A stretch of DNA of 64,000 nt from a virus. The notes under the pieces are model-generated. The model saw only the letters and a program-made list of their open reading frames with translations. It ran no database searches and was not told the DNA's origin. This document shows positions 4,739 to 35,996 of this stretch, piece by piece. The translations under genes were made by a program, and so were the position numbers. Within the stretch, counting starts at the first letter, position 1. Each line of letters opens with the position of its first letter. The stretch spans positions 1-64,000 of IMG/VR virus record IMGVR_UViG_3300042090_001530, one strand, 5' to 3'.

Positions 4739-5821
4739 GTGGCTACGACGAAGGATAACCGCGCCCCGAAGAAGGGGCGAGCACGAGACGACAACGAGCA
4801 GCCAGTCAGCGCGCCCGCAGACGTCCACGCCGTCCTACGGCACGGCGGCACCGCGGCCCTCGTCTGCGCCGCCGCGAGCTCGGCCGTGTCCCTGTTCTGG
4901 CTCGCCATCCTTGTCGGATGGCCTCCCGCACTCGCATGGCTGCTGCCCGCGTCCCTCGATGTGTACGCCGGCACGAGCCTCTACGTCGGCTACCGGCTCC
5001 CCGGCGCGCATCCCGCCGCGAACACCGCGCGCCGTAACGCCCGCTTCGCCCTCTCCCTCTCGGTCGCCTGCAACGGGATCTACCACGCGCTCGTGCTCTT
5101 CGGCGCCGAATGGCCCTACTGGGTGCACGACTCGCTCCTCGTCGCGGTCTCCGCACTGCCGCCGGTCGTCGTCGAGCGGCTCCTCCACCTCCGCTCGAAG
5201 ATCGGCAACGGGCACGCGGCGGCATCCGACACCGTTGCCGCCCCGGCGCCAAAGGCTGCCGCCGGGACCGACAACACCCCGGCCGTCGTCAAGGAGACCG
5301 GCAAGCCTCCGCTTGACCGGCAATCGTCCACCGAGGCGGACATCGACAACCCGGCAACCGGCAACCCCGAGGATCCGACAACCCGGATCGGCAACCCGGC
5401 GACCCAGACCGGCAAGCCTCCCGTCAACGACAACCCGTCCGACCGTCAGGCCCAGACCGGCAACCCGTCCGATCGTCAAAAGCCGGCCGTCAAGCAGCCC
5501 GCTGCCGGTCAGCCGTCAACCGACACCTGGGTCGAGATCGGCAAGCCGCTCTACGACCGGCTGCGCATCGAACTCGGCAAGCGGCCCGGGGAAACCAAGT
5601 TCCACGCCTACCTCTCCGAGTGCGTCGCCGAACTGATCGAAGACGGCGTTCCCGTCGGCGCGAACAAGGACGAGAGCCCCGAGGTGTACGCGAACCCGTC
5701 CCTGTCCACGGCCAAGCGCATCCGCAAGGAGATCGAGGACCGATTTCCCGGAATCGTCTTCGGCCACGCCCAAGACGCCGCCGAGGGGCAGCTCGACCTG
5801 ACCGAGGAGGCGGCCTCGTGA
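4739..5821 (+). CDS. DUF2637/Spd-like membrane protein
   Basis: GTG at 4739 follows a GGGAG site. Residues 36-150 hold four hydrophobic segments with the WLLPASLDVYAG pattern typical of DUF2637 proteins, membrane proteins of Streptomyces plasmids and integrative conjugative elements that are linked to plasmid spread. Residues 160-265 form a low-complexity linker with repeated TGKPP, TGNP and SDRQ units. The last 90 residues are a charged helical domain. The stop overlaps the GTG of the FtsK-like ATPase, so the two proteins are probably made together and may act together at the membrane. The family call is fairly secure; involvement in conjugation here is inference. Confidence 0.75.
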   Translation: MATTKDNRAPKKGRARDDNEQPVSAPADVHAVLRHGGTAALVCAAASSAVSLFWLAILVGWPPALAWLLPASLDVYAGTSLYVGYRLPGAHPAANTARRNARFALSLSVACNGIYHALVLFGAEWPYWVHDSLLVAVSALPPVVVERLLHLRSKIGNGHAAASDTVAAPAPKAAAGTDNTPAVVKETGKPPLDRQSSTEADIDNPATGNPEDPTTRIGNPATQTGKPPVNDNPSDRQAQTGNPSDRQKPAVKQPAAGQPSTDTWVEIGKPLYDRLRIELGKRPGETKFHAYLSECVAELIEDGVPVGANKDESPEVYANPSLSTAKRIRKEIEDRFPGIVFGHAQDAAEGQLDLTEEAAS

Positions 5822-7983
5822 CCATCGTCCAGGGACATGTGATCCAACCCGGCGGAAACGAAGATCCCTCCGCCCCGGGGCAGATCATGCCTTCCCGCAG
5901 CTACGTTGCAAGTGAGCACTTGCAGGTCATCCACGGGCTGCTCCCGGCCCCCGCCTCGCCGCTCCAGGAGTGGCCAGGCCGCGCCCGCCTGGCCGAACGC
6001 GCCGTCGTGGGCATGATCCACGGCGTCCTGGCGTACAAGGCCGTCGCGCTCGTGCCGCTCGCCGTGGCCGCGACCGAGATCATGGCCTCGGTGATCCACA
6101 TGGCGCCGCATCACATGTTGGCCGGCGGCCTCATGTGCACCGTCGGGGTCGGCGCGTCCGCCCTTGCCGGGATCATGTCGCTCGCGCACGTCTCGAACAC
6201 CCCGGCTCCGCACCACGCCGCGACGCACCACGCCGGACACTCCGGGAAGATCATCGGGACGGCGTTCGGGATCGCCCTGGCCCTGTTCGAAGTCGGCACC
6301 ACCATCTGGCTCGGCCCCCTCTCGGCCCTGTCGTGGGGCGCCGGGATGCTCGCCACCATCGGCGGCAGCATCGGCCTCGGCGTCGCCATCCACCACCACC
6401 GCGGCCACACCCAGATCCGCGACACCGACCGGATCCGGGCCGTCGCCGAATTCGCGGCGTCAACCGCCATCGAACCGGCAAGCCACATGCCCCCGACGGC
6501 AACCCAGTACGACCAGCACCCGCTGTCGACGGAAGTGATCTACGCGTTGTCGGTTGTCGGCTGGCCCGGCGCGACCATCGACGCCATGCCGGTCGTCGTC
6601 AACCCCAACCGGTGGACGGTCACCGCCAACCTCCCCGAAGGCGTCGCGTTCAAGACCGTCAAGGCGAAGGAGGTCGAGCTCGCCGCGACCATGCGGATCG
6701 TCGCCGGAGGCTTGACGCTCACCCAGGGCCGCGGCAGCCACCAGGTCGTGTTCTCCGTCAACAACCTCGCGATCGCGGAACTCGCGAAGCCCGGCCCCCA
6801 CCCGGCCGTCGAAGCTCCGGGCCGGTCCGTCTCCATCTGGGACCCGGTCGACTTCGGGCTCGACGACGACGATGACGACGTCGGCATCGTGCTCGCCGGC
6901 ACCCCTGGCATCCTGATCGCAGGCGACCCGGGCAGCGGCAAGTCGAACGCCGTCGCGCACGCCCTGTGCCACGTCGTGCAGGCGGTCGACTGCAGGCTCA
7001 TCACCATTGACGGCTCCGGCCGCGAACTGGTGATCTTCAACGAGGTGGCCGACCAGCACACCACCACCGACATGGACGCCGCCATCGCGATCCTCGACTG
7101 GCTGCAAACCGAGATCACCCGCCGCGGCGCACTCCTCGCCGAACAGCGCGCCACGGAACTCACCCGCGAACTCGCCGAAGACCTCGAACTCGACTGCATC
7201 TGCTACGCCATCGGCGAACTCGCCTACTTCACCAACTACGACGACAGCAAGAAGAAGACCACGTTCAATCTGAAACTGCGCGACATCACCTCACGGGGCC
7301 GCGCCGCCGGAATCTTCGGCGTATTCGACACTCAGAAACCGGAAGACCGAACAGTGCCCTCGGCGATTCGCGACATGGTGCCGTTCAAGCTGGCATTGCG
7401 CTGCGAGACGGCCGACGCGGTCAACACGATCCTCGGCAAGGGTATGGCGAAGCAATACCCGGCGCACGAGCTGGACGCGGGAGCCAAGGGAGTCGGGTAC
7501 CTCAAGGGCGTCCCGGGACGCAAGCCGTTCCGGCTGCGCACGCGCCGGATCGAGCCGGCGGAACGCTACGCGATCGTCGACTCGGCCAAGGTCGGCTTCG
7601 TCGCGCCGCCGCCGATCGTGCCCGGCCCCGGCGGGGGACAGGCGGACTACGACGACGGGCCCGCGCCGGGCACCGGGGCCCCGGCGCTGCGCCTGGTGAA
7701 GGGCGGACTCTACCCCGACGGCACCAAGTTCGAGAACGAGACGTTCTCCGCCGTCTGGAGCCTGCTCGATCGGCTCCCGGAGGGTTTCACCTACCGGGAT
7801 GTCGGCGTGCTCGCCCCGTCGGTCGGCCTGTTCGGCGGGCGCAGCACCGTGCAGACGCAGCTCGACGCCTGGCGCGATCAGGGCCGGATCGTGGCGATCG
7901 GCGAGCGACGCGGCCCGGCCGGGCCGCCCACCGCCGTCTATCAGCGCTCCGACCGGGCCGGGCGCGGCGAGGTGACCGCCTGA
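5818..7983 (+). CDS. FtsK/SpoIIIE/TraSA-like DNA translocase ATPase, 721 aa
   Basis: The start is GTG at 5818, overlapping the upstream stop (GTGA). Four hydrophobic segments lie at about residues 72-92, 100-122, 145-165 and 168-190. The motor region has Walker A GDPGSGKS at 369-376. The Walker B site reads YAIGELAYF, with Gly466-Glu467 where the family normally has Asp-Glu. A C-terminal winged-helix-like region covers about 670-721. AICE TraSA/TraB proteins move double-stranded plasmid DNA between mycelial cells; FtsK relatives pump DNA through membranes. The membrane region plus motor fits such a role, with the DUF2637-like neighbour as partner. The Gly in Walker B may weaken Mg-ATP binding or signal a divergent motor. 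Confidence 0.85.
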   Translation: MTIVQGHVIQPGGNEDPSAPGQIMPSRSYVASEHLQVIHGLLPAPASPLQEWPGRARLAERAVVGMIHGVLAYKAVALVPLAVAATEIMASVIHMAPHHMLAGGLMCTVGVGASALAGIMSLAHVSNTPAPHHAATHHAGHSGKIIGTAFGIALALFEVGTTIWLGPLSALSWGAGMLATIGGSIGLGVAIHHHRGHTQIRDTDRIRAVAEFAASTAIEPASHMPPTATQYDQHPLSTEVIYALSVVGWPGATIDAMPVVVNPNRWTVTANLPEGVAFKTVKAKEVELAATMRIVAGGLTLTQGRGSHQVVFSVNNLAIAELAKPGPHPAVEAPGRSVSIWDPVDFGLDDDDDDVGIVLAGTPGILIAGDPGSGKSNAVAHALCHVVQAVDCRLITIDGSGRELVIFNEVADQHTTTDMDAAIAILDWLQTEITRRGALLAEQRATELTRELAEDLELDCICYAIGELAYFTNYDDSKKKTTFNLKLRDITSRGRAAGIFGVFDTQKPEDRTVPSAIRDMVPFKLALRCETADAVNTILGKGMAKQYPAHELDAGAKGVGYLKGVPGRKPFRLRTRRIEPAERYAIVDSAKVGFVAPPPIVPGPGGGQADYDDGPAPGTGAPALRLVKGGLYPDGTKFENETFSAVWSLLDRLPEGFTYRDVGVLAPSVGLFGGRSTVQTQLDAWRDQGRIVAIGERRGPAGPPTAVYQRSDRAGRGEVTA

Positions 7984-8423
7984 TGGCGCGCAGGAAGCGC
8001 GGCTACCTGGCCTCGGAAGCGCGGAAGGCTGCCCGCGCGATGAGGCCAGACCGCGTTTTTCTTCGCTTCTGGACCGGGGGCAAGTATCAGACGTTCGGGG
8101 GCCTCGTGCGCGGGGCGCTCGGCGCAAGCCGGCAGCAGGTTCCGATGCGTGCAGTGCCACCCGGCTCGCCGGTTCCGAAGACAGCGGGGGCAGCGAAGCG
8201 CGCGCGTGCCGTTGCGGCGAAGACGGCGTCCGCGAGCAAGCAGACCACCAAGCAGCCGGTCATCAAGAAGACCGCGCGCGGCAAGCAGGTCGCCAAGCGC
8301 AAGGGCAAAGGCCAGTTCGACGGGTCCGTCGTGCTGCCGGGCGCCGACCTGACGCTGTACCGGCGCGCGGTGGACGGCAACGCGATCGTCCAGCCGGGCG
8401 AACCCGGGCGGAGGCGGATTTGA
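7983..8423 (+). CDS. very basic Lys/Ala-rich protein, probably DNA-binding
   Basis: The ATG overlaps the ATPase stop (TGATG). The 146-residue product is strongly basic, with an Arg-rich N terminus and a low-complexity Lys/Ala/Thr stretch at about residues 65-112 that resembles histone-like tails. The C terminus is compact and non-repetitive. It could bind DNA non-specifically, perhaps as a substrate adaptor for the translocase. No family is recognised. Confidence 0.7.
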   Translation: MARRKRGYLASEARKAARAMRPDRVFLRFWTGGKYQTFGGLVRGALGASRQQVPMRAVPPGSPVPKTAGAAKRARAVAAKTASASKQTTKQPVIKKTARGKQVAKRKGKGQFDGSVVLPGADLTLYRRAVDGNAIVQPGEPGRRRI

Positions 8424-8857
8424 TTACCGGTGGACGCAGCGACGGGCTTGCGCTCGGCACGCTCATCCCAACCAGTTCGGGACTGACGCCCTTGGGGCAG
8501 CTCCGCGTCGGCGACAGCGTCTTCGACGAAAACGGGCAACCCTGCACGGTCGTTGGAGCGGGTCGCTCGACCGGAGACCGTGCGTGCTACGAGATCGAGT
8601 TCAGCGGCGGCTCGACTTTCATCGTCGGCGCCGATCAGCCGTGGATCGTCGATACTCGCAAGTCGCGCATGTATCGACTTGAACAGACGCGTCGTGCGGC
8701 GACCGTGGGCCCACTGGGCAAGCGTCGGTACGGCGCCGCACTGCCGCCGGCGCGGCTCGCGCCCGAGCGACGTGCGGCACTCGCCGAACTCGGTATGACG
8801 TGGCCGCCGTCGGTGACCGACCTGGAGTTCACGGCGCCTGTCGCCCCGGCCGACTAG
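8420..8857 (+). CDS. stand-alone Hint (intein-like) domain protein, 145 aa
   Basis: The start is TTG at 8420, overlapping the previous stop (TTGA). Residues 11-72 read like the N-terminal half of an intein: LALGTLIPT, then LRVGDSVFDENGQPC, then CYEIEFSGGS and GADQPW. In active inteins a Cys directly precedes LA(L)GT; here that position is Gly10, so self-splicing through the usual nucleophile is unlikely. The C-terminal splicing motif (HN) and a TxxH block are also not seen, and there are no flanking exteins. The protein may be a relic intein or a Hint domain reused as a binding module. Confidence 0.65.
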   Translation: MITGGRSDGLALGTLIPTSSGLTPLGQLRVGDSVFDENGQPCTVVGAGRSTGDRACYEIEFSGGSTFIVGADQPWIVDTRKSRMYRLEQTRRAATVGPLGKRRYGAALPPARLAPERRAALAELGMTWPPSVTDLEFTAPVAPAD

Positions 8858-9028
8858 TCCGCGTGGTGCGCAGCCCGGGGGGCGCATTCGTCAACGACTT
8901 GCGCGCCGGGGTCCGTAGCCCCAAACTCGGGCTAGAAGATCACGCCCGCCCCGATCACCAGTCGAGGCGGGCTACACGGATCGAATCGGCTCCCCCCAAT
9001 GCTAGAACGCACCAACGGGAGCTGACGC
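8858..9028 (+). terminator. intergenic region with two hairpins
   Basis: AGCCC (8917-8921) pairs with GGGCT (8929-8933), and GCCCGCC (8944-8950) pairs with GGCGGGC (8966-8972). No open frame is convincing. The second stem is a plausible terminator for the transfer-like operon, and a promoter for the 9029 gene may follow; a GGGAG ribosome site lies just upstream of that gene. Confidence 0.45.
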
Positions 9029-10270
9029 ATGCCGCGAGATCACCGGAACGCACGGCCCTACTGGCCGCACTCCCAGCCCGAGCCCATCCACGAAGCCGAC
9101 ATCCCCGATGCGCCCGTCTGTCCCGGGAAATGCAACGCGGCCTGGCGCGCCGCCGAAGAACGCGTCCGGCTCCACGGCGGCGAACACGACCTCGAGCCCG
9201 AACCCGGCGCGCCCGTCTGGTGCCCGCCGTGCCAAACCGAGATCCGCGGCGCCCTCGACGACTGGCCCGACCTCGCCGTGCGCCTCGCCGAAGAGATCGG
9301 ATCCGGCGTCAGGACCCGCATCGGCGAATACGTGTCCGGGTCCAAAACGCGGCCCATCCACGAGCACGAAGCGCCCAGCCTCCTGCTCGACGAGATGGCC
9401 GAATGGCTGCCGGAATGGGGCGCGACCATCGCCAGAGAGCGCGGGCTGCCGGAGCGCCCCGGCCGGCGCCCGGGCGCGGACCCCATCGCGCAGATCACCG
9501 ACGCCTGCCGGTTCCTGACCATCCACCTCACTTGGCACCTGGGCGAACGTCCCGCCGACGAGCACGAACGCGCCGAAGACTTCGGCCGCGAACTGCTCGC
9601 CGCCACCCGCCGCGCCCGCACCATCACCGGCACCCAGGAGTCCGAGCCCATCCGCGTCATCGGCGTCGCCTGCCCGCACTGCGACCGCAAGGCGCTCGAA
9701 TACGAGATCGAAGACAGCCCCACCCGTAAAGCCGCCGTCAAGCGGTATCGGTACGACGGCGACGACGTGGCCAACGAACCGCAAACCATCGGCCCCGACG
9801 AGGCACGACGCCTGCGCCTGCCCCGACACTTCGAGACCGCGCTACGCCAGCGCATGCAACTCGGCCCCGACCCGGCCGGCTGGAAACTCCTCGCCGACTG
9901 CGACACCCACGACCTACGAGCCCTCGACGGCCACCCCGGCATCGACAGTCGGCTCACCGACCGCCTCGACGAGTATCAGGCCGAGCGCGTCCGCGACCTG
10001 CCCGCCGCGGTCCTCGACGACCTGTTCGCCGGGCCGTACGGCATCCCCGGCAAGGCGGTCGAGACCATCACCGTGAACGTGCAAGGCTCCGTCGTCGGCT
10101 ACGTCCGCTGCCGCCGCTGCAGGCCCCTGTTCCGCATGAACCTCGACGAATACCACAAGTGGACGCGCATGCTCGCCGCCGGCGACGAAGTACGCGCCAA
10201 GGCCACCGCCGAGAAACTGCGCGAAGTGTTCGGCAACTCCGTCCCCGTGCAGTACCGAGTCAAGAAGTGA
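9029..10270 (+). CDS. Cys-rich (zinc-ribbon-like) hypothetical protein, 413 aa
   Basis: ATG at 9029 follows GGGAGC. The protein has four Cys pairs: CPGKC near residue 31, CPPC near 65, CPHC near 218 and CRRC near 363. They suggest two zinc sites formed within the long chain. Between them are charged helices and a His-rich segment (TIHLTWHLG). Large proteins of this type commonly precede an excisionase-like gene in actinobacterial mobile elements, as here (GTGA overlap with the next gene). A DNA-binding or replication-accessory role is possible but unproven. Confidence 0.75.
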   Translation: MPRDHRNARPYWPHSQPEPIHEADIPDAPVCPGKCNAAWRAAEERVRLHGGEHDLEPEPGAPVWCPPCQTEIRGALDDWPDLAVRLAEEIGSGVRTRIGEYVSGSKTRPIHEHEAPSLLLDEMAEWLPEWGATIARERGLPERPGRRPGADPIAQITDACRFLTIHLTWHLGERPADEHERAEDFGRELLAATRRARTITGTQESEPIRVIGVACPHCDRKALEYEIEDSPTRKAAVKRYRYDGDDVANEPQTIGPDEARRLRLPRHFETALRQRMQLGPDPAGWKLLADCDTHDLRALDGHPGIDSRLTDRLDEYQAERVRDLPAAVLDDLFAGPYGIPGKAVETITVNVQGSVVGYVRCRRCRPLFRMNLDEYHKWTRMLAAGDEVRAKATAEKLREVFGNSVPVQYRVKK

Positions 10271-10545
10271 GCGCGCAGATCGATCCGACGGACCCGCTGT
10301 TCAAGCCGCTCACGCTGAACGAAGTCCTCGAGATCACCGAGCGGTCCCAGCGCACGATCAACCGGTGGATCCAGACCGGCCGGCTGACCGCCTACGAGGA
10401 GAAGCATCGGCGTCAGATTCTGTTCAACGAGGACGAAGTCGTCGAGCTCGAGTACGAGAAGAACCGGGCGCGCAGACAGGGTCGCCCGCGACCCAAGGGA
10501 AGCCGCGAGGGTCCTGGGGCTGAGGGAATTGACGCAGGTGGCTAG
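10267..10545 (+). CDS. MerR/excisionase-type HTH DNA-binding protein
   Basis: GTG at 10267 overlaps the upstream stop. Residues 13-60 match the HTH_17/excisionase pattern: LTLNEVLEITERSQRTINRW, then I-x-TGRLTAYEE and a wing ending ILFNEDEVVE. The C terminus is basic and Gly-rich. In AICEs and phages such proteins act as Xis or repressors and usually sit beside the integrase gene. No integrase follows; instead there is a terminator, a tRNA and an IS607 element. A transcriptional regulator is the alternative. Confidence 0.75.
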   Translation: MSAQIDPTDPLFKPLTLNEVLEITERSQRTINRWIQTGRLTAYEEKHRRQILFNEDEVVELEYEKNRARRQGRPRPKGSREGPGAEGIDAGG

Positions 10546-10710: not shown

Positions 10711-10782
10711 GCCGTGTTAACTCAGCGGTAGAGTGCCGCCTTCGTAAGGCGGAAGTCCAGGGTCCGATCCCCTGACGCGGCT
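10711..10782 (+). tRNA. tRNA-Thr (anticodon CGT)
   Basis: A complete cloverleaf is visible. The acceptor stem is 10711-10717 with 10775-10781 (one G-T pair) and the D arm is ACTC/GAGT with GG in the loop. The anticodon stem is CCGCC/GGCGG, with loop TTCGTAA and CGT at 10743-10745. The variable loop has 5 bases and the T arm is CAGGG/CCCTG. The T loop reads TCCGATC, so the usual T55 is C, an atypical base. The CCA end is not encoded. It reads ACG codons. It may be a phage-borne tRNA or part of a host tRNA used as attachment site, since an excisionase-like gene lies next to it. Confidence 0.85.
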
Positions 10783-10884
10783 CGAAGCACTGACGTACCC
10801 TGGGCGTGTCGGCGGAGACGAGGGTAGCGAACTGTTCCGTGGATCATCAGTAAACATCAGCTTCCATAGGCATATACTGACCCT
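10783..10884 (+). promoter_or_regulatory. AT-richer region before tnpA
   Basis: The region contains the repeated hexamer CATCAG (twice around 10845-10860), an inverted pair TCAGTA/TACTGA flanking about 22 bases, and a CATATACT stretch that could serve as a -10 box shortly before the GTG of tnpA. These could be recombinase-binding sites at the left end of the element and its promoter. No clear ribosome site is visible. Confidence 0.35.
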
Positions 10885-11454
10885 GTGAAGCTTTCGGAGT
10901 GGGCGCGGCGGGAGGGTGTGCACTACCAGACCGCGTGGGAGTGGGCCCGGGACGGGAAAATGCCTGTGCCGACCTACCGCACCCCGTCTGGGACCTGGAT
11001 GGTACGCGCCGAACCCGAACGGCCTACGGGCCGAGTTGTCGCCTACTGCCGGGTCTCCTCGCAGGATCAGAAGCCCGACCTCGAACGCCAGGCCGGGCGC
11101 GTGGTCGCGGGCGCAACATCCCAGGGTTTCGCAGTGGCGGAGGTCGTCACCGAGATCGGATCCGGCCTCAACGGCAAGCGCCGGAAACTACATCGGCTGC
11201 TCGCCGACCCGGACGCTACGGTGATCGTGGTCGAGCATCGCGACCGGCTCGCCCGGTTCGGCGTCGAGCACCTCGAGGCCGCGCTCGCCGCGACCGGCCG
11301 CAGGCTCGTGATCCTCGACCCGGAGGAGACCGCCGACGATCTCGTGCGGGACATGACCGAGATCCTCACCTCGATGTGCGCGCGCCTCTACGGGCGCCGC
11401 TCCGCGAAGAACCGCGCGGCACGCGGCATGGCCGCGATGGCAGCCGACCAGTGA
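10885..11454 (+). CDS. tnpA: IS607-type serine recombinase TnpA
   Basis: The 189-residue protein has an N-terminal MerR-like helix-turn-helix (residues 1-45, LSEWARREGVHYQTAWEWA). The serine-recombinase catalytic domain follows: YCRVSSQDQ at 54-62 with the expected nucleophile Ser58, and the conserved EHRDRLARFG segment. Length and layout match IS607 transposases, which are far shorter than phage serine integrases. It would cut and rejoin DNA as the element moves. The start is GTG with no strong ribosome site. All motifs look intact, so the enzyme may be active. Confidence 0.92.
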   Translation: MKLSEWARREGVHYQTAWEWARDGKMPVPTYRTPSGTWMVRAEPERPTGRVVAYCRVSSQDQKPDLERQAGRVVAGATSQGFAVAEVVTEIGSGLNGKRRKLHRLLADPDATVIVVEHRDRLARFGVEHLEAALAATGRRLVILDPEETADDLVRDMTEILTSMCARLYGRRSAKNRAARGMAAMAADQ

Positions 11455-12836
11455 CCGTACAGGCGTTCAAGTTCGCCCTGGACCCGACGCCGTCTCAGGC
11501 CCGGGATCTGCTGCGGCACGCCGGCGCCGCGCGGGTCGCGTTCAACTGGGGTCTCGCGCAGGTCAAGGCGAACCTCTCGCAGCGCGAGGCCGAACGCTCC
11601 TACGGCATCGACGGCGACGACCTGACGCCGTCCCTGAGCTGGTCGATGTATTCGCTGCGCAAGGCCTGGAACCAGGCCAAGGATGATGTTGCGCCGTGGT
11701 GGGCCGAATGCTCGAAAGAGGCGTACGCGGCCGGGCTGAACCACCTGGCCGCGGCACTGAAGAACTGGTCGGACTCAAAGAAGGGCAAGCGCGCCGGGCG
11801 CCCGATGGGCTTCCCCAGGTTCAAGTCCCGGCGCCGCGCGACACCGTCGGTGAAGTTCACCACCGGCGCGATCCGCGTCGAGCCCGATCGCAAGCACGTC
11901 ACACTGCCCGTCCTGGGCACGATCAAGACGCACGAGTCGACGCGGAAACTGTCGCGGAAGATCGAGGCGGGTGCGGCGCGGATCCTGTCCGCGACGGTCC
12001 GGTTCGAGCGGGGCCGCTGGTTCGTCGCGTTCACCGTCGAGGCCGTGCGCAAGGAAGTCGCACCACGCCGACCCGGCGCCGTGGTCGGCGTGGACCTGGG
12101 CATCAAGACGCTCGCGGTCCTGTCCGAGGGCGAGCCGGTCCCGAACCCGCGGCACTTCGACGCCGCGCGCCGGAAACTCGCGCGCACTTCGCGCACCGTG
12201 TCCCGCCGTCAAGGCCCGGACCGGCGTACCGGGCGGCAGCCGTCGAACCGGTGGAAGCGTGCGAACGCGGCCCGCAACAAGGTGCACCACCAGGTGGCGG
12301 CGCAGCGCCGTGACGGCCTGCACAAGCTGACGACGCGCCTGGCGAAGCATTACGGCACGATCGTGATCGAAGACCTCAACGTCGCCGGGATGGTGCGGAA
12401 CAAGAAGCTCGCCCGGCTGATCTCGGATGCCGGGTTCGGCGAGTTCCGGCGGCAGCTCGCCTACAAGACCGAGTGGTACGGCGCCCGGCTGGTGGTTGCC
12501 GACCGCTGGTACCCCAGCAGCAAGACGTGTTCGGGCTGTAAGACAGTGAAACCCAAGCTGTCCCTAGCCGAGCGCGTGTTTACCTGTGAGGCGTGCGGCC
12601 TGGTCATCGACCGGGACCTGAACGCTGCTCTGAATCTGCGCGACCTTGTCGCGCACGTCGCCGGGAGTGGCCCGGAGACGTTAAACGGACGCCGAGCCGA
12701 CCGTGAGACCAGGCCTCGCCTGGCAGGTGGCGCAACCCCGCGACAGCGGACAGAAACGTCAATCTTGCGCCCGGCAGCAGTCGGGGTCAGACAGGAACCT
12801 TCGCCCCTCACGGGGCGGATCCTTGAGATTCACTGA
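11451..12836 (+). CDS. tnpB: TnpB RNA-guided nuclease of the IS607 element
   Basis: GTG at 11451 overlaps the tnpA stop (GTGA). The 461-residue protein has the N-terminal KFALDPTPSQ start of TnpB and the three RuvC acidic residues Asp215 (VDLGIKTLAV), Glu307 (IVIEDLNV) and Asp389 (DRDLNAALN). The zinc finger uses C360, C363, C379 and C382. TnpB proteins are guided by an RNA made from the 3' end of the element and cut target DNA at a short TAM; they are ancestors of Cas12. All catalytic positions are kept, so activity is plausible. The last 60 or so residues are low in conservation and overlap the presumed guide-RNA region. Confidence 0.93.
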   Translation: MTVQAFKFALDPTPSQARDLLRHAGAARVAFNWGLAQVKANLSQREAERSYGIDGDDLTPSLSWSMYSLRKAWNQAKDDVAPWWAECSKEAYAAGLNHLAAALKNWSDSKKGKRAGRPMGFPRFKSRRRATPSVKFTTGAIRVEPDRKHVTLPVLGTIKTHESTRKLSRKIEAGAARILSATVRFERGRWFVAFTVEAVRKEVAPRRPGAVVGVDLGIKTLAVLSEGEPVPNPRHFDAARRKLARTSRTVSRRQGPDRRTGRQPSNRWKRANAARNKVHHQVAAQRRDGLHKLTTRLAKHYGTIVIEDLNVAGMVRNKKLARLISDAGFGEFRRQLAYKTEWYGARLVVADRWYPSSKTCSGCKTVKPKLSLAERVFTCEACGLVIDRDLNAALNLRDLVAHVAGSGPETLNGRRADRETRPRLAGGATPRQRTETSILRPAAVGVRQEPSPLTGRILEIH

Positions 12837-23576: not shown

Positions 23577-26500
23577 ATGTCGCTCACCACCATCACCGTG
23601 ACCGGTTCGTACCCGGCCGGAGCCGGCAGTGGCGTCGCCACCGGGTTCGTGACGTTCGTCCCGACCGCCCGGATCGTCAACGCCGCGGGCCACACCATCA
23701 TCCCGCAACTCCCGGTCCAGGTGCAGCTGCAGCTCGGCGCGTTCTCCCTGCCCAACGTCATCACCACGGACAACGCGGGCCTGAGCCCGGCCGGGTGGGC
23801 GTGGGAAGTGACGGAGTACATCTCCGGTGTCGCGGCGGACCCCTACTACGTCTTTATTCCCAGCACCTTCGGCGAGACCGTCGACCTGTCGCAGTTGACC
23901 GAGGCCACGCCCGGCCCGATCGTCACCGCGTACGCGAACCTCGGCGCCAGCAACACGTTCACGCTGGGAAACACGTTCGCTGCGGGCATCACGGTCGAGG
24001 GCGCGTTCGAACTCGACGGAACCGGCATCGCCAGCCCGCCCGGCGGCACCACCGAGTTCCTGCGCGCCGACGGCACCTGGGACGTCCCGGCCGGAGGCGG
24101 AGGCGGGGGAGTCACCCCGCCCGCCGGGGACCTCGGCGGCACCGCCGGAGACCCCACGGTCGTCTCCACGCACCTCGCCTCGCCGCTGCCCACCGCGCAG
24201 GGCGGAACCGGCGCGGCATCGCTCGCCGCGGCGGGCCTCGTGCAGGGCGCGAACAACCTCTCGGATCTCGCGTCCGCGAGCAGCGCCCGCACCAACCTCG
24301 GCTTGGGCACGGCGGCGACCCAGTCCGCGGCCGCGTTCGATGCGGCGGGCGCCGCAGCCACCGCGCAGGCGACCGCCGAGTCCTTCGCGACCAGCGCGGT
24401 CGGCGCCGAAACGACCCGAGCCGAGGCCGCGGAAGCACTGCTGGCCCCGCTGGCCAGCCCCGCACTGACCGGCTCCCCGACAGCGCCCACGAAGACCGCG
24501 CTGACCAACAGCACGGACATCGCCACCACCGCCTACACCGACGCGGCGGTAGCGGTAGAGACGACCCGAGCCGAAGCCGCCGAAGCACTCAAGGCGCCGC
24601 TGGCCTCGCCCGCGCTCACCGGATCCCCGACCGCGCCGACACAGACCACGGGCGACAACAGCACGAAACTCGCCACGGACGCGTTCGTCACGACCGCGGT
24701 CGCCACCGAAACCACGCGCGCCGAGACGGCCGAGGCCGCGCTGCTCCCGCTGACCGGCGGAACGATGACCGGCGCGATCGCGATGGGCGCCCACAAGGTC
24801 ACCGGCCTGACCAACGGCAGCGCCCCCACGGACGCGGCGGCCTACGGGCAGATCCCGACCTCCGCGGGCAGCATCGGCGGCCTGCTCGCCGCGAACAACC
24901 TCTCGGACGTGGCCTCGGCCGGAACCGCCCGCACGAATCTGGGCCTCGGCTCGGCCGCCGTACTCGCGGGTTCCGCAGTCGCGCAGACCGCCAACAACCT
25001 CGCCGACCTGGCCAACGAAGCCACCGCGCGCACCAACCTCGGACTCGGCGGCGCCGCCGTCCTCGCCGCGAGCGCCGTGGCCCAGACGGCGAACAACCTT
25101 TCGGATCTCGCGTCCGCAACTGCGGCCCGGACCAACCTGGGACTCGGTGCGGCGGCGACGGCGTCCCTGCCGCTGCCGCTCGCCTCCGGCGGCACGGGTC
25201 TGAACGCCGCGCCCGGAGCAGTCAGCGAGTCGCTGCTCGCGACCTCGACCAGCGCCGTGGCCTGGTCCACCCAGACCTACAACATCGTCGCGTACGGCGC
25301 CGACCCCACCGGCGCCGCCGACTCCACCACCGCGATCAACAGCGCGATCGCCGCCGCCGTCGCGGCCGGCGGCACCGTCCTGATCCCGCCCGGCACGTTC
25401 TCGACGACCGGCATCGTCATCAGCGGCGCATCCAAGTTCTGCATCCGCGCGGACCGCGGCGCCACCCTGTGGATCGCCGCCCCCACCAACGCCGCACCCA
25501 CGCAGGTCACCCGCAACATCCTCACGCTCGTCGGCTGCACGGACTTCGCGATCGAGAACCTGACGATCGACGGGCGCCGCGACGCCATCGCGCCCCTCAC
25601 GGTGCTCGCCGCCAACGCCGCCTCCGGGCAGGCGTTGGTGCACGTCGCCAACGGCGCGGCCGCCGCCTACAAAGTCGGGCAGGTCCTCAACGTCTGCGGC
25701 GGCTGGACCGTCGCGAGCGGCGCGCAGCAGAACCAGCAAGACCAGAACCTCACCATCGCGTCGATCACGCCCGGCACCAGCGGCGGCAACGACACGATCA
25801 CCTTCACCGCGAACCTCGCCAACGCCTACACGTCGGCCACCGGCACCCAGACCGACGGGTACGGGCCCATCGCCGGCAACGGCGGCTACATCACCCCATG
25901 GCAGACCGGCACCGCCACCATCGCCGGACGCGTCCTGACGCAGGAAGATCAGCAGTGCGGCATCCACCTGATCGCATGCACCAGGTTCCGCGTGTCCGGC
26001 TGCGAGATAACCGGCATGTGGGAATCCGGGATCCGCTGCGGCGACCATCTGCTCAACGGCTCCGCGCAGAACGACGGCGCCACCCTCGGCACCATCACCG
26101 GCAACATCATCACGCACTGCTACGACCAGGGCATCGGCCTGTGGTGCAGCGCGAACATGACCGTCACCGGCAACACGGTCACCGCAGCGGGCTGGGCCGG
26201 GATCTGCATGACCGGTTCCGACCAGTGCACCATCACCGGGAACGTCTCGACCAACAACACGCAGCTGATCCCCAACGGGCCCGGAGGGTACGGCGCCGCG
26301 ATCGAAGGCGGCCTCGGCAACGTCGTCTCAGCGAACCAGTTCAACGGCAACGCGTACTGCCCGATCCTGCTCACCGCACTCGGCACGATCCCCTTCGGCG
26401 GACCCGCCCAGGTCGCCACCACCGTCGCGTCCGGATCGAACACCGTCGCACTGCCCGCCACCGCCGTGAACCTCGCGTCCGCGACGGGGCTCGCCACGGC

Positions 26501-29390
26501 CGGGCAGGTCACGATCCTCAGCTCGGCCGGCGCCCAGCAGATCACCTACACCGGCGTCTCGGGCAACCAGCTCACCGGCTGCACCGGCGGCGTCGGCACC
26601 ATGTACACCGGGCAGCGCGTCACCCAGTACCCGGTCTTCACGAACAACGGCGCGACCCTAGCGGTCGGCTCCACGACCACGATCGTCTCCAACGGCGCCC
26701 TGTTCCAAGTCGGCGGCAAATACAGCATCGTCGACGGGCCGCGCACCGAACGCATCACCGTCACCGCGATCAGCACCAACACCCTGACGCTGCAGTACCC
26801 GACCTCGTTCCAGCACATCGACCAGTGCCAGATCGGCCAAGCGGTCGCCGAGTCCAACCAGATCCTCGGCAACTTCTGCTCCGGCGGCACCGACGCCGGC
26901 ATCAAACTCGCGTCGGCCATCAGGACCACGATCGACGACAACAGCCTGTACCAGATCGGCCTGCGGGGCATCGACGGGATCATCTGGTCCTCCGGCGGCC
27001 TCCAGCCCCCCTACGGCACGATCGTGTCCAACAACACGATCACCGCCCCGGACACGACGGGCAACGGCGCCGCATACTCGTCCATCGCCTTCGCCCAGAT
27101 GTCCGACCTGCAGATCTCCGGCAACAGGTGCGGCGGCGCGCTCAACGCCACCCAGGAATCATACGTAGCCCTGTTCATCCAGGCCGTCACCGACAGCGTC
27201 GTCTCCCGCAACATCGTCGCCGACACGTACGGCGTCGGAATGAGACTCGACGTCGTCAACGAATGGCCATGCAAGCGGGTCCGGGTCGCCGACAACCAGA
27301 TCTTGCGCACCGGCGGCGAAGGACTCGTCCTGTACGGCGGCCAGGAACTCCAGGTCGCCGGGAACGTCATCGAAGGCTGCGCCCCCAACTCCGGCGGCGG
27401 CTACGGCGGCGCCCTGGACGTACGCGGCGTGCAGAGCAGCATCATCGCCAACAACCTCGTCATCGACAACGGGCACGGCGGCATCAGCCTCGACAGCGCC
27501 ACCATCAACGGGGCCACCGTCTACACCAGCGCGAACACGTTCTCAGGCAACATCGCCGGCGACGACGGGCTCAACTACGACTGCTGGACCGGCGCCCACC
27601 AGCAGCAGGGCTCCGGAATCAAAGAGGTCTCGAGCGGCCAAGGCCCCAACGCCTACGACGGCAACATCGTCTTCGGGACCGGCGCCAACTTCTCGCTGAC
27701 CAGCCTCGGCAACACGTTCACCGGCACCTCGCTCGTGCCCGTCGCCGTCAAGACCGCGAACTACACGGCGAACCCCAGCGAGTTCGTGCCCTGCGACACC
27801 ACGACGGCCGCGCTCACCGTCACCCTCCCCACCGCGCCGACCGACCGCACCGTAGCCGGGGTCAAAGCCGTCACCCTCGGCGCAGGCCACAACGTCACCG
27901 TCGCCTGCGGCGGCACCGACGTGTTCAACAAGACCGGCGGCGGCACCACGGCCACGATCTCACTGCCCGGCCAAGCCCAGTTCTACCAGTACAGCGCCAG
28001 CCTCGGCGTCTGGTACATCGTCGGCGACGACCTGCCACTGACCCAACTCGACACCCGGTACGTCCTCGACTCGACGATGACCACGCTCGGCGACACCCTC
28101 TACGGCGGCGCGGCAGGCACCGCCACGCGCGTACCCGGCAACACCACGGCGACGAAGAACTTCTACACCCAGACCGGCACCGGCAGCGCATCCGCCGCGC
28201 CCGCCTGGGGCGCCATCGCCGCCGCCGACATACCCACCCTCAACCAGAACACCACTGGCACGGCAGGCGGCCTGAGCACCACCCTCGCGATCGGCTCCGG
28301 CGGCACGGGCCAGACAACCCAACAGGCAGCGATCAACGCGCTCACCGGCACCCAGAACGCCAGCACATACCTGCGCAGCAACGGCACCAACGCGAGCCTC
28401 TCCGCCATCCAAGCCAGCGACATCCCGACTCTCAACCAATCCACGACCGGGACGGCCGCAGGCCTCAGCACCACCCTGGCCGTCGGCAGCGGCGGCACCG
28501 GGCAGACCACACAGCAAGCGGCCATCAACGCCCTGACCGGGACGCAGTCCGCAGGCACCTACCTGCGCTCCAACGGCACCAACGCGGCCCTGGCGGCGAT
28601 CCAAGCCGCCGACGTCCCCACGTTGAATCAGTCCACCACCGGCAACGCCGCATCCGTCGGCGGCATCACCGTCACCGGAACACCCGCCACCGGCCAAGCC
28701 CTCGTCGCCACCTCCGCCACGGCCGCCGACTGGCAGGCCGCAGGCGCCGTCACCGCACTGACCCAATTCGGGACCGCCAGCGCCAACGGGTCCACCGGCC
28801 AATACTCCGACGCCGGGCACGTCCACGGCGCCCCCGACTCCTACACCTGGGACTCCCCGAAACAGCACGGCTTCAAAGAATGGCTCTTCCCGCTCCTCAC
28901 CAGCTACCTCAACCAGTCCTTCACCTCCGGCACCATCTACGGCGCCACCTTCATCGCGCAAACCAACTCCACCATCTCCAAAGTCGCCGTCGACGTCACC
29001 TCGGCCGCCGCCACCCCCACCGCCGGTGAAAACCTCATCGGGTTCTACACCGTCTCCGGCACCACCTGGACCCAGGCCACCGTCACCGGAGACCTCAGCA
29101 CCTGGGGCTCGACCGGCCTCAACGAATACACCTTCGGCGCCAGCCAAACCCTCGTGCCCGGCACCACCTACATGCTGCTGATGCTCTCCGTCGCCACCAC
29201 CGCCGTGCACCTCGGCGGATTCACCGGAAACAACAATTTCACCAACCTCGGCTGTTCCGCGACCGCCGCCCCGTGGATGAGGTTCTTCACCTACGGCACC
29301 AGCCAAACCGCGCTGCCCGCCTCGTTCACCGCGTCCACCAGCACCCTGAGCATCACGTCCGCGATCTTCCCGTGGGCCGGACTGCTCTAG
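23577..29390 (+). CDS. giant tail fibre protein, 1937 aa
   Basis: ATG at 23577 follows GGGGGTG. The order of parts is: an N-terminal beta domain (about 1-110); stalk repeats with ASPALTGSPTAPT and ANNLSDLAS...ARTNLGLG units (about 200-550); a pectate-lyase-like beta helix starting near residue 567 (VAYGADPTGAADS); the DDLPL-QLDTRY module (about 1390-1498); further stalk repeats with GSGGTGQTTQQAAINALTGT; and a C-terminal jelly-roll-like domain after residue 1760. The protein is an extreme example of mosaic tail-fibre evolution and probably determines host range together with the 952-residue protein. Confidence 0.88.
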   Translation: MSLTTITVTGSYPAGAGSGVATGFVTFVPTARIVNAAGHTIIPQLPVQVQLQLGAFSLPNVITTDNAGLSPAGWAWEVTEYISGVAADPYYVFIPSTFGETVDLSQLTEATPGPIVTAYANLGASNTFTLGNTFAAGITVEGAFELDGTGIASPPGGTTEFLRADGTWDVPAGGGGGGVTPPAGDLGGTAGDPTVVSTHLASPLPTAQGGTGAASLAAAGLVQGANNLSDLASASSARTNLGLGTAATQSAAAFDAAGAAATAQATAESFATSAVGAETTRAEAAEALLAPLASPALTGSPTAPTKTALTNSTDIATTAYTDAAVAVETTRAEAAEALKAPLASPALTGSPTAPTQTTGDNSTKLATDAFVTTAVATETTRAETAEAALLPLTGGTMTGAIAMGAHKVTGLTNGSAPTDAAAYGQIPTSAGSIGGLLAANNLSDVASAGTARTNLGLGSAAVLAGSAVAQTANNLADLANEATARTNLGLGGAAVLAASAVAQTANNLSDLASATAARTNLGLGAAATASLPLPLASGGTGLNAAPGAVSESLLATSTSAVAWSTQTYNIVAYGADPTGAADSTTAINSAIAAAVAAGGTVLIPPGTFSTTGIVISGASKFCIRADRGATLWIAAPTNAAPTQVTRNILTLVGCTDFAIENLTIDGRRDAIAPLTVLAANAASGQALVHVANGAAAAYKVGQVLNVCGGWTVASGAQQNQQDQNLTIASITPGTSGGNDTITFTANLANAYTSATGTQTDGYGPIAGNGGYITPWQTGTATIAGRVLTQEDQQCGIHLIACTRFRVSGCEITGMWESGIRCGDHLLNGSAQNDGATLGTITGNIITHCYDQGIGLWCSANMTVTGNTVTAAGWAGICMTGSDQCTITGNVSTNNTQLIPNGPGGYGAAIEGGLGNVVSANQFNGNAYCPILLTALGTIPFGGPAQVATTVASGSNTVALPATAVNLASATGLATAGQVTILSSAGAQQITYTGVSGNQLTGCTGGVGTMYTGQRVTQYPVFTNNGATLAVGSTTTIVSNGALFQVGGKYSIVDGPRTERITVTAISTNTLTLQYPTSFQHIDQCQIGQAVAESNQILGNFCSGGTDAGIKLASAIRTTIDDNSLYQIGLRGIDGIIWSSGGLQPPYGTIVSNNTITAPDTTGNGAAYSSIAFAQMSDLQISGNRCGGALNATQESYVALFIQAVTDSVVSRNIVADTYGVGMRLDVVNEWPCKRVRVADNQILRTGGEGLVLYGGQELQVAGNVIEGCAPNSGGGYGGALDVRGVQSSIIANNLVIDNGHGGISLDSATINGATVYTSANTFSGNIAGDDGLNYDCWTGAHQQQGSGIKEVSSGQGPNAYDGNIVFGTGANFSLTSLGNTFTGTSLVPVAVKTANYTANPSEFVPCDTTTAALTVTLPTAPTDRTVAGVKAVTLGAGHNVTVACGGTDVFNKTGGGTTATISLPGQAQFYQYSASLGVWYIVGDDLPLTQLDTRYVLDSTMTTLGDTLYGGAAGTATRVPGNTTATKNFYTQTGTGSASAAPAWGAIAAADIPTLNQNTTGTAGGLSTTLAIGSGGTGQTTQQAAINALTGTQNASTYLRSNGTNASLSAIQASDIPTLNQSTTGTAAGLSTTLAVGSGGTGQTTQQAAINALTGTQSAGTYLRSNGTNAALAAIQAADVPTLNQSTTGNAASVGGITVTGTPATGQALVATSATAADWQAAGAVTALTQFGTASANGSTGQYSDAGHVHGAPDSYTWDSPKQHGFKEWLFPLLTSYLNQSFTSGTIYGATFIAQTNSTISKVAVDVTSAAATPTAGENLIGFYTVSGTTWTQATVTGDLSTWGSTGLNEYTFGASQTLVPGTTYMLLMLSVATTAVHLGGFTGNNNFTNLGCSATAAPWMRFFTYGTSQTALPASFTASTSTLSITSAIFPWAGLL

Positions 29391-30512: not shown

Positions 30513-32165
30513 ATGACCGCCGTCCTCGACTGGGCTGAACACGCGGCCCGCGAATTCGAAGACGACGCACCCAAGCCCCGGCACCGCTTCTACGACGACC
30601 CGGTCGGATTCGCCGACACCTGCATCCGCTGGCCCCCCGATGCGGGACTGACCGCCTACCAGCGCGACGTGCTCGCCGCACTGCCCACCAAACGCAAAGT
30701 ATCCGTGCGCGGACCGCACGGCCTGGGCAAGACCACCACTGCGGCCGTGGCCGTCCTGTGGTTCGCCCTGACCCGCGAACTCTCCGGACGCGACTGGAAG
30801 ATCCCCACGACTGCCGGGGCATGGCGCCAGCTCGAATTTTATCTCTGGCCGGAGATAAAGAAGTGGGCGCGGCAGTTGGACTGGAACGCCCTCGGCTGCG
30901 AACCGCTCTCGGAGCGCACCGAACTGCTCACCCTGAACATCAAACTCGCGCACGGGCACGCGTTCGCCGCCGCGTCCGACAACCCGTCCCTGATCGAAGG
31001 CGCGCACGGCGACAGCATCCTATACGTCTTCGACGAATCCAAGGCGATCATCCCGGCGACGTTCGACGCCGCCGAAGGTGCGTTCTCCGGCGCGGACGCC
31101 ACCGGCAACCTCGAGGCATACGCCCTTGCGATGTCCACCCCAGGCGAACCCAACGGCCGCTTCTACGAGATCCACTCGCGCAAACCGGGCCTAGAAGACT
31201 GGTGGGCACGGCACGTCACCGTCGACGAGGCGATCGCCGCCGGTCGCATCAGCAAGTCCTGGGTGGAACAGAGGCGCCTACAGTGGGGCGCCGACAGCGC
31301 GCTCTTCGCCAACCGCGTCCTCGGCGAATTCCACTCCAGCGACGAAGACGGCGTCATCCCGCTCGCCTGGGTAGAGGCCGCCAACGAACGCTGGCGCGCC
31401 TGGGACGACGACGGCCGTCCCGAAATGCCGGGGCCCCGCACTGTCGGAGTCGACGTCGCAAGGTCTGGATCCGACAAGACCGTGATGGCGCTCCTCGACG
31501 GCGCCGTGCTCACCGAACTGCGCCACAGCTCCCTTGAAGACACGATGCAGACCACCGGCCGCGTCATCGGAATCGTCACCGCCCACCCGGACCGGCGCCC
31601 GATCGTGGACGTCATCGGCATCGGCGCCGGCGTCGTCGACCGGCTGCGCGAGCAAGGCGTCAGCGTCGAGGCGTTCAACGCCAGCGAAGGCACCGACCGC
31701 AAGGACCGATCGGGCGAGTTGGGCTTCACCAACACGCGCAGCGCCGCGCACTGGAACCTCAGGGAACTGCTCGATCCGGCCTACGGCGCCGAGTTGGCGC
31801 TCCCGCCCGACGACCGGCTCACCGGAGACCTGACCGCCCCGCACTGGCGGGTGATGTCCGGAGGCCGGATCCAGGTGGAATCCAAGGACGAGATCCGAAA
31901 GAGGCTCGGCCGGTCCACCGACGACGGCGACGCCGTAGTCCAAGCCACATGGGACGGCGACGGCACCGACGCGCAAGCCTGGATCGACCACTTCCGGCGC
32001 AAAGCCGAAGCCGTCGGCATGACACCACGTGCGGCCATCGGCGCGGCATCCGCAGAACCCGAACCGACCCCCGAACCCGAACCCCCCACCAGCGACATAG
32101 ACCTCCGGCGGGCAGCACGCACAGCGGCACTACGCGGCGGCCGGTTCACGACGTCCTCACGCTGA
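30513..32165 (+). CDS. terL: terminase large subunit (packaging ATPase and nuclease)
   Basis: The 550-residue protein has Walker A RGPHGLGKT at 66-74 and Walker B YVFDES at 171-176. The RuvC-like nuclease domain carries Asp314 (GVDVARSGSD), Asp366 (VDVIGIG) and Asp471/Asp473 (TDDGDAVV). Length and layout match phage large terminases, which cut concatemers and pump DNA into the prohead. It starts 12 bases after the small subunit gene with a GGGGG site. All catalytic residues are present, so a functional motor is expected. Confidence 0.95.
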   Translation: MTAVLDWAEHAAREFEDDAPKPRHRFYDDPVGFADTCIRWPPDAGLTAYQRDVLAALPTKRKVSVRGPHGLGKTTTAAVAVLWFALTRELSGRDWKIPTTAGAWRQLEFYLWPEIKKWARQLDWNALGCEPLSERTELLTLNIKLAHGHAFAAASDNPSLIEGAHGDSILYVFDESKAIIPATFDAAEGAFSGADATGNLEAYALAMSTPGEPNGRFYEIHSRKPGLEDWWARHVTVDEAIAAGRISKSWVEQRRLQWGADSALFANRVLGEFHSSDEDGVIPLAWVEAANERWRAWDDDGRPEMPGPRTVGVDVARSGSDKTVMALLDGAVLTELRHSSLEDTMQTTGRVIGIVTAHPDRRPIVDVIGIGAGVVDRLREQGVSVEAFNASEGTDRKDRSGELGFTNTRSAAHWNLRELLDPAYGAELALPPDDRLTGDLTAPHWRVMSGGRIQVESKDEIRKRLGRSTDDGDAVVQATWDGDGTDAQAWIDHFRRKAEAVGMTPRAAIGAASAEPEPTPEPEPPTSDIDLRRAARTAALRGGRFTTSSR

Positions 32166-35100: not shown

Positions 35101-35996
35101 CGTTCGGGCAGCGCGGACTCGGCGTGATGAAGGCCAGCGGCGGTGAACCCGACGGCCCAAAAGCTGACGCCTCCGCCAAGGAGGCGTCCAAGGCGTGGCC
35201 CGGCTGGGAACACGACCTCCAAGCCGCCCGGCACTGGGCCGACAGACTCAACAACGGATACACCAACGCATTAAGCCGGACGCACGCCGAACGCATCGCA
35301 GCCTCGTTCATCGCCGCACACCCGCAACCGAAAACCGAGAAGAAGCCGACCAAAGCCGAGACCGCGGCGGTAGCGGCAGCACTCCTCGCCGCCGCGCTCG
35401 CACACCTCGAAAACCAAGGCCTCGACCTCACCAGCCATGCCACCGAGAACCTGCGCGGTATCTACGCCGACGGCTACTTGATCGGCGCCGCATCCGGCAA
35501 CGCGGTCATCGACGGCGGCGCGCCCGCGCTCGGTAACTGGGCGCCCGGCAAAACCGCCGACGCGCACCACCTCATCGAAACCCTCGCGCTCGGCGCCGGG
35601 CTCTCCGCGCTCCTGCTACGAGCACCCGAAGTAGCAGCGGAGATGTCGAACACGCGCATGACCGCCATGGCCACAGCGCTCGCCGCCGGCGCGGCATCCG
35701 GATCGGGGCCGGCCGTCATCGCCGGAACCCTAGTCGCGGTCCTCGCCGCGGGCTGGCGATCCCTCAGATCCGCGATCACCGGAATCACCACCGGATCCAG
35801 CGCCGGAGCGAGCGACACCTACCAGAAGCGCGGCGTCGAACTCGGCCAATGGCTGCTGGACCCCAGCAGCAAGAGCTGTCCGAACTGCATCGCCAACGCC
35901 AACGCCAAGCCGCGCCCACTCGGGCAGCCGTGGCCCAGCGGCAGCGCATATCCGCCAGAGCATGATCACTGTCGGTGCGAAATCGGCCCTGCGTAA
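32178..35996 (+). CDS. portal - NUDIX - 2H phosphoesterase - MuF polyprotein, 1272 aa
   Basis: GTG at 32178 follows GAGGGGGCG. Residues about 80-480 are a portal domain (RSLEWSLV, YGRAPLESIL). Residues about 640-800 form a NUDIX hydrolase with a complete Nudix box: Gly686, Glu692, Arg700, Glu701, Glu704, Glu705 and Gly707. Residues about 835-970 are a 2H phosphoesterase (LigT/CPDase type) with HVT at 852-854 and HLT at 962-964. The final part ends in CPNCIANA and HDHCRCEIGP, the signature of MuF minor head proteins. The portal is the DNA gate; MuF proteins enter the head. The two enzyme domains may process nucleotides or RNA, or counter host signalling. Portal-MuF fusions are known; the inserted enzyme pair is unusual. 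Confidence 0.9.
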   Translation: MVSRELALPEPAAVTRQRARAVRAQAAASPRARVAKVWGTAVPTAVQAGEAASQMTPASPFAPGEPVSPYDGFSRTPRTFDYIPQYNVATRPRTHERVAFSTLRGLIESYDIAQVAIWHRIDSIRSLEWSLVADDGYQGDVTGAVALGMAALKKPDRKNPFDAWLAEFLFDVLAFDAGALYRMRNRAGQVIGLKPVDGTILAPLLDYWGDPPEPPAPAYVQYANGLPWNWLTADDLIYQPFRKITNSPYGRAPLESILLNANTDLRFQAYFLQRYTEGNLPAAFASAPETWTPQQIESFQEYWDGFILGDQSFKNQIRWIPPGSKIEWSNEKDFTDAFSLFMMRKTLAAYHVVPADLGFTESVNKSAGETQTDVQHRIGDAPLAKHVSSILTGFLQDDLRLPLKHQFDFGEEQDDRLATAQADQVYIQNAVVSPSEIRELRFGLGEPDGRPVPRYIFSSRGGAVPLAPLFAVAGPIDPASGAPLPGAPLPKKPFSPIEGVEPNPAPPTKPLAVQIYGDLNPPTPNPVVGVAPAPHAVMPGAAAPQAAATPVAKDGAAAPAAGSGSTAGITAATGIYSYDLGTEPVIMPDADDIDYEVAKSELATYRRYVKARKRSGRWKDFEFAAIDRVTAHRLNDAGRLEIRKAGGVIACAGLAVLAEDTGRVLMLQRGLDPNDPASGTFEFPGGHVEDGETPLAAAEREFQEETGLLLSADALTNANPDATWTSADRVYRGFVVTIPVEAALPIAERGQVANPDDPDADAVEMIAWWDPRLLPANPAVRPELLASMDDVQRAIAIAQPCDTVPAEVAAPVEKAAPMLGEVPGLTKRSGMISLDLPAGLIPVVPGGLNDHHVTVVYLGKDLDDEDFAAACDRAETAATAMAGPLTGSISGRGVFPPSASSDGKIPVFAEVELPGISALHAELEDLSASEHASYHAHVTRTYAEPGDQLPDPLPYTPVTFTHLTVHRGDEQMSFPFGQRGLGVMKASGGEPDGPKADASAKEASKAWPGWEHDLQAARHWADRLNNGYTNALSRTHAERIAASFIAAHPQPKTEKKPTKAETAAVAAALLAAALAHLENQGLDLTSHATENLRGIYADGYLIGAASGNAVIDGGAPALGNWAPGKTADAHHLIETLALGAGLSALLLRAPEVAAEMSNTRMTAMATALAAGAASGSGPAVIAGTLVAVLAAGWRSLRSAITGITTGSSAGASDTYQKRGVELGQWLLDPSSKSCPNCIANANAKPRPLGQPWPSGSAYPPEHDHCRCEIGPA

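Follow-up and report, generated by a model that had tools for sequence, protein, structure and literature searches.

The stretch of DNA analyzed in this work (hereafter the window) comprises 64,000 nucleotides and corresponds to bases 1-64,000 of the IMG/VR virus record IMGVR_UViG_3300042090_001530, the total length of which is 202,490 bp. Between 4.7 and 10.5 kb it contains a group of genes headed by those of a DUF2637/SpdB2-like membrane protein and of an FtsK/TraB-like translocase of double-stranded DNA (dsDNA). An earlier note on this DNA had likened the group to the transfer modules of actinomycete integrative conjugative elements (AICEs). We find that the DUF2637-FtsK pair is of phage origin and occupies a conserved position in actinophage genomes, and the explanation that we regard as best, and hold with moderate confidence, is that it constitutes a conserved phage septal dsDNA translocase which would act on phage DNA. 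Two points appear to be new, judging from comparisons of sequences: the C-terminal part of the DUF2637 protein seems to be swapped jointly with FtsK, and the module of each phage seems to carry short repeats of its own, similar to the clt/TRS sites of plasmids.

Genes of the module and their conservation among actinophages

Profile searches found all genes named in the earlier note to be present, open and correctly placed. The module and the gap behind it contain the following features (aa, amino acids):

4739-5821, + strand: DUF2637/SpdB2-like membrane protein, 360 aa (PF10935 E=0.02, below the cut-off)
5818-7983, + strand: FtsK/TraB-like dsDNA translocase, 721 aa (PF01580 E=1.8e-11; phrog_1358)
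7983-8423, + strand: basic protein, 146 aa, no Pfam or PHROG match (not in the list of the earlier note)
8420-8857, + strand: free-standing Hint domain (Hint_2 E=0.003)
9029-10270, + strand: Cys-rich putative DNA-binding protein (phrog_1467/1568)
10267-10545, + strand: small HTH_17/MerR-like protein (HTH, helix-turn-helix; PF12728 E=7e-8), excisionase-like in fold only
10711-10783, + strand: tRNA-Thr (CGT) found by ARAGORN and Rfam (not in the list of the earlier note)
10847-12836, + strand: IS607-type element in the gap at 10.5-13 kb (PF00239, PF01385, PF07282)

The weak DUF2637 assignment holds, because it is supported by an ortholog at the same place in the related phage G045 (E=9.5e-4) and because four membrane helices are predicted (residues 27-163; AlphaFold model with a mean pLDDT of 58). 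The helices are followed by a low-complexity linker and a helical C-terminal domain; a fold search with this protein gave no significant match. FtsK possesses an intact Walker A motif (GDPGSGKS), and its model comprises an N-terminal helical region, presumed to lie in the membrane, a confidently predicted motor (residues 235-592) and, at the C-terminal end, a winged helix (641-710). The nearest solved structures are FtsK motors (2iut, profile E=4e-31, Foldseek E=3.6e-20), and the next structural match is TcpA, the coupling protein of the conjugative plasmid pCW3.

The surroundings of the pair are shared with other phages. In G045 (128.8 kb) a homolog of the record's gene g7 is followed by a DUF2637-like gene, a gene for a protein of 484 aa, FtsK, the Cys-rich and HTH genes, homologs of g23-g42 and the portal gene, while the relative L141 reads from the C-terminus of FtsK through two genes and the Cys-rich and HTH genes onward to the portal. 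In G048 (109.5 kb, with a 99-bp exact terminal repeat at its ends) homologs of g315, g7, g10 and g11 precede DUF2637 and FtsK, and G050 (116 kb, with a 127-bp exact terminal repeat) keeps g315, g10 and the DUF2637-FtsK pair in a partly conserved order. In G030, with an FtsK 62% and a DUF2637 protein 42% identical to those of the window, the pair lies beside tRNAs and a portal gene. Portal genes were found in the carriers G030, G045, L141, G048, G050 and G052, and the TerL (terminase large subunit) and portal of G048, as well as the portal and serine integrase of G050, belong to families unlike those of the window phage. Thus, several phages with differing head genes keep the pair, mostly at the same place, which indicates that it belongs to the phage backbone rather than to one head-tail type. 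This FtsK is absent from 29 contigs picked by similarity of TerL, which suggests that module and head genes move independently, although many of these contigs are fragments.

The Cys-rich gene has orthologs with 35-53% identity in G045, L141 and L143, always with the HTH gene directly behind it; the HTH gene keeps this partner and does not adjoin an integrase. The two are part of the pre-terminase region of the phage and not an integration module. Other phages keep this pair and the genes of the 13-30 kb region in order, so that synteny spans the gap at 10.5-13 kb, in which only the tRNA-Thr and the IS607 insertion are found. The latter consists of a serine resolvase (10885-11454) and TnpB (11451-12836), and a copy with 78% DNA identity lies about 3 kb downstream of ftsK in G050. 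Four further TnpB genes occur in the record, at 90.7, 101, 130.9 and 179.5 kb.

The Hint gene is similar to the intein segment of TerL (phrog_15 E=2.7e-10) and to intein-like regions of related viral contigs; in related phages such regions lie in TerL and in other genes. An active intein usually begins with Cys. The Hint gene begins with DGLALGT, its usual first Cys apparently replaced by Gly, and for this reason it is probably a degenerate, dead intein remnant inside the module.

Cassette exchange and repeat arrays

Comparison of the window with L144/G048 and L146/G050 reveals a change of similarity within the DUF2637 gene: the membrane half of the protein is 77-78% identical, whereas the C-terminal half is only 19-25% and FtsK only 22-25% identical. 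For L144/G048 alone, the values are 78% for residues 1-190, 19% for the tail and 25% for FtsK. In G030 the membrane half is 39%, the C-terminal half 43% and FtsK 62% identical to the counterparts in the window. Because the boundary of identity falls within the DUF2637 gene, the tail of this protein and FtsK appear to have been exchanged as one cassette.

The exchangeable segment contains two groups of short repeats:

5203-5575, + strand: CGGCAA repeat array in the DUF2637 linker, a candidate clt/TRS-like site (octamer cluster scan)
6164-6497, + strand: second, weaker CGGCAA group in the N-terminal part of ftsK (site count)

The core of the array, ACCGGCAA, occurs five times at 5297-5456 and is the joint top non-low-complexity octamer cluster in the 202-kb record; a complexity filter was applied to the scan because GC-rich low-complexity words of unrelated genes partly dominated the rankings. 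The copies lie in two reading frames and exceed what is obtained by shuffling synonymous codons (P 0.02-0.03), and over the whole module of the window CGGCAA is found 16 times against 3.3 expected. As a positive control, the same octamer scan yields a GACCCGG array directly after traB of plasmid pSVH1, where clt is expected; a literature search did not find the TRS sequence of pSVH1.

Similar enrichments were observed in the relatives, often with the sites in two groups, one in the DUF2637 linker and one about 1 kb further downstream. In G048, DUF2637 and ftsK hold all octamer clusters of the genome, with 22 copies of GGCAAC where 1.7 are expected. When the module is ranked by heptamer enrichment against windows of its own genome, it comes first in G048 (0 of 199 windows as enriched), G052 (0/99) and G051 (0/35), and second in G030 (1/96). 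The enriched word varies among the phages: CCGGCAA in the window, GGCAACG in G048, CGTCCCG in G051 and G052, ACCGCTC in G030, and GGTTCCA in G045 and G050. G051 and G052, which have the same word, have FtsKs that are 64% identical; G045 and G050 also share theirs, although their FtsKs are only 25% identical, and the contexts of the sites differ. In L172, fetched afterwards, CGTCCCG was found again; 13 of its 16 sites fall within the module, and none of 27 windows is as enriched. This pattern of words and positions is what points to a possible recognition of the repeats by FtsK.

Ancestry of the pump and the surrounding phage genome

The best single-sequence match of FtsK is encoded by a 125-kb plasmid of S. 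zaomyceticus, followed by pumps of Streptomyces plasmids, including TraB of pSVH1. The S. zaomyceticus plasmid is circular and carries a major capsid gene, and the surroundings of its ftsK are laid out as in the Streptomyces phage Gilgamesh; by its sequence, this plasmid is a prophage. In a tree of 60 sequences, the FtsKs of the window and G030 fall into an 11-member group of actinophages and phage-plasmids (98/98 support), while TraB of pSVH1 and the relatives from bacterial genomes fall across a branch. Bacterial genomes yielded no close relatives of this FtsK, only distant TraB and phage types, and FtsK translocases are present in cultured actinophages.

The window pair resembles SpdB2-TraB of pSVH1 in that a DUF2637-type gene lies upstream of an FtsK motor and a candidate repeat array lies near the pump gene. 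However, the window FtsK is only 25-30% identical to TraB, belongs to the other branch and has a different winged-helix end, the repeats lie within the gene of the membrane protein and not 3' of traB as in the plasmid, and the pair is phage-borne. Gilgamesh, the Mycobacterium phage Thibault and the S. zaomyceticus phage-plasmid share with the window a homologous motor in a phage genome context, but they lack an adjacent annotated DUF2637 gene and their FtsKs are 28-30% identical to that of the window. The C-terminal YPDG winged-helix segment is common to the window FtsK and the Gilgamesh-type proteins, and TraB is without it. Two sequences deserve mention here. NZ_CP107934.1, annotated as a non-mobilizable plasmid, resembles a Gilgamesh-related phage-plasmid and has ftsK and a separate DUF2637 gene, and L174 (IMGVR_UViG_2675903202_000003, 86,984 bp), a contig that carries a distantly related FtsK module, bears an IMG identifier which suggests an isolate genome and could serve as a laboratory model.

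The whole record reads as one large temperate tailed actinophage (Caudoviricetes), with terminase, portal, tape measure and integrase all present, and the head-tail module that the earlier note had described downstream of the 4.7-10.5 kb genes is indeed there, with TerL at 30.5 kb, the portal at 32.3 kb and the tape measure at 46.8 kb:

30513-32165, + strand: TerL (phrog_2 E=4e-32)
32340-35996, + strand: portal, fused to NUDIX and other domains (phrog_2662; PF04860 E=4.8e-13)
46829-50941, + strand: tape measure protein (phrog_2723 and other families)

TerL is 58% identical to that of the Streptomyces phage TurkishDelight and 57% to that of the Actinoplanes phage phiAsp2; this makes an actinomycete the most likely host. 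The portal is unusually long (about 1,220-1,270 aa) and shows a NUDIX-like region as well as an RNA-ligase-like match (phrog_2659), and a tail fibre/spike-like protein of 1,937 aa is encoded at 23577-29390. Beyond the window, the record contains a tyrosine integrase (PF00589) at 66503-67891, with a homolog of 38% identity in G045, and DnaB at 95 kb; it also encodes an HNH endonuclease. At record positions 114107-120513 (L004), genes for a mannosyltransferase-like membrane protein, a glycosyltransferase, a GH26-like protein and an RNB-domain ribonuclease form one run. There are no direct terminal repeats in the 202,490 bp. Nonetheless, the ends of the record probably join, and the record is probably near-complete, because relatives hold homologs of its last and first genes close together and in order. 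A chimeric contig is unlikely, since relatives bridge the record from 198 kb across its ends to 4.7 kb, from 4.7 to 8 kb and from 9 to 30 kb.

Proposed role and alternative explanations

TraB is known to recognize 8-bp repeats via its C-terminal winged helix and to translocate dsDNA (PMC3583192), and SpdB2, a membrane protein that binds DNA, interacts with TraB and is involved in spreading (PMC4170104). By analogy, the DUF2637 protein of the phage may anchor or organize a complex in the membrane, the role that SpdB2 has in plasmids, and FtsK would act as a membrane-attached hexameric dsDNA pump, the C-terminal winged helix of which would read the short repeats in and beside its own gene in the way that TraB reads clt/TRS. 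The pump could then move or segregate the phage's own dsDNA across host septa, and prophage or replicating DNA might thereby reach adjacent hyphal compartments, resulting in mycelial spread or in segregation of the prophage. A more far-reaching version, which we consider rather unlikely, holds that the phage lineage spreads both as virions and as naked dsDNA pumped across septa between compartments or mycelia, with the specificity of the pump set by a swappable lock-and-key cassette composed of the DUF2637 tail, FtsK and the matching repeats.

It is possible, though in our opinion doubtful, that the pump serves only the maintenance of the prophage, segregating the phage chromosome or aiding dimer resolution at the closing septum with no intercellular transfer. 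The fold and the profile are equally FtsK-like, a related FtsK resides on the 125-kb circular phage-plasmid, the functions of spread and stability overlap in Streptomyces plasmids (PMC4170104), and segregation has been proposed for FtsK of the Thermobifida phage P1312 by its authors (PMC4569894). Yet the DUF2637 partner is typical of plasmid spreading modules, ParA and ParB were not found in the record or its relatives, and the window phage and G045 carry an integrase, so that a plasmid state of the prophage is doubtful. A phage-plasmid with partition genes was considered for the window phage itself and rejected, as the 202-kb record yielded no ParA or ParB in a search whose controls worked. 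We regard as improbable a role in the lytic cycle, with the pump drawing in incoming DNA or clearing host DNA and the repeats serving as operators of a regulator: the pair does lie upstream of the terminase region on the same strand, and cultured Mycobacterium phages have FtsK genes without an adjacent annotated DUF2637 gene, but the repeats are within coding DNA of exchangeable segments rather than in promoters, and the pair is conserved with its membrane Spd-like partner.

The earlier note had offered a phage-AICE hybrid or two elements integrated side by side, and a genuine hybrid or pair of neighboring elements now seems highly improbable. The likeness that inspired this idea is in part real: FtsK and DUF2637 resemble the SpdB2-TraB pair of Streptomyces plasmids (the match of FtsK to TraB of a Streptomyces plasmid has an E of about 1e-25), and DUF2637, FtsK and HTH_17 beside a tRNA look AICE-like in order. 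The pSAM2-type AICEs have an FtsK pump, a DUF2637-like gene and an HTH_17 gene in an order similar to that of the window. However, the Cys-rich and HTH genes are phage genes, and FtsK groups with phage FtsKs in the tree. According to the published definition (PMC3218068), an AICE possesses an integrase, a Rep (RepSA, RepAM or Prim-Pol) and an FtsK pump; of these, the FtsK/SpoIIIE-type pump (PF01580) alone was found at the locus. In the extended 202-kb record we found no Rep, no integrase adjacent to the module and no duplicated att: Prim-Pol was not found in a search with working controls, RepSA and DUF3631 (RepAM) were not found in a search without a working control, and the sole identified integrase lies 56 kb from the HTH gene (record 66.5 kb). 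Integration at a tRNA usually uses its 3' end. The tRNA-Thr was considered as an att site and dismissed, as its 3' end has no second copy anywhere in the 202-kb record and the AICE-like genes are on its 5' side. The gap at 10.5-13 kb, across which the earlier note had suggested comparing synteny, holds only the tRNA and the IS607 element and is crossed by continuous synteny in other phages, so that the pair sits inside one phage genome, with syntenic rather than foreign flanks on both sides. This synteny, together with the missing integrase and att sites and the lack of a detected Rep, distinguishes the window phage from pSAM2-type AICEs and from an AICE inserted beside a phage. The earlier note had itself named such a module in ordinary actinophages as grounds for refuting its idea, and other actinophages do carry this kind of module in their backbone, with synteny that runs on without a break; FtsK translocases also occur in cultured actinophages.

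Several observations weigh against the septal translocase that we favor. The heptamer enrichment in the window is modest (44 of 385 windows are as enriched as the module), the module ranks only in the top 9% in G045 and the top 7% in G050, and in L174, also fetched afterwards, where it ranks first, the palindrome-like word was partly counted twice. The repeat analysis was exploratory except for L172 and L174, and low-complexity linkers can generate repeats, for which synonymous shuffles control only partly; in G030, G050 and G051, the DUF2637 gene fails this test. The repeats common to G051, G052 and L172 may have been inherited with homologous sequence. The branches of the FtsK tree are long, above all that of G045, which calls for caution. 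Finally, the septate mycelial host is an assumption based on relatives, and no experiments with a phage homolog were found in the literature.

A precedent for an element that is both phage and conjugative in Streptomyces exists in the plasmid-phage pZL12, which according to published descriptions makes phage and transfers conjugally via a tra gene (Zhong et al. 2010, as cited in PMC3583192, PMC4487206 and PMC7157519). It differs from the window phage in that pZL12 is a plasmid with ParA/ParB, which were not found in the window record. Given this precedent, a dual lifestyle of spread by virions and from cell to cell, which the earlier note had called new, would not be wholly so. FtsK-like genes of actinophages have been annotated for years, and we found no tested role for them in the literature. 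The conserved partner, the cassette exchange and the candidate repeats make the plasmid-type septal spread of phages testable. If it is true, the prophages of bacteria that produce antibiotics could travel in the manner of conjugative plasmids.

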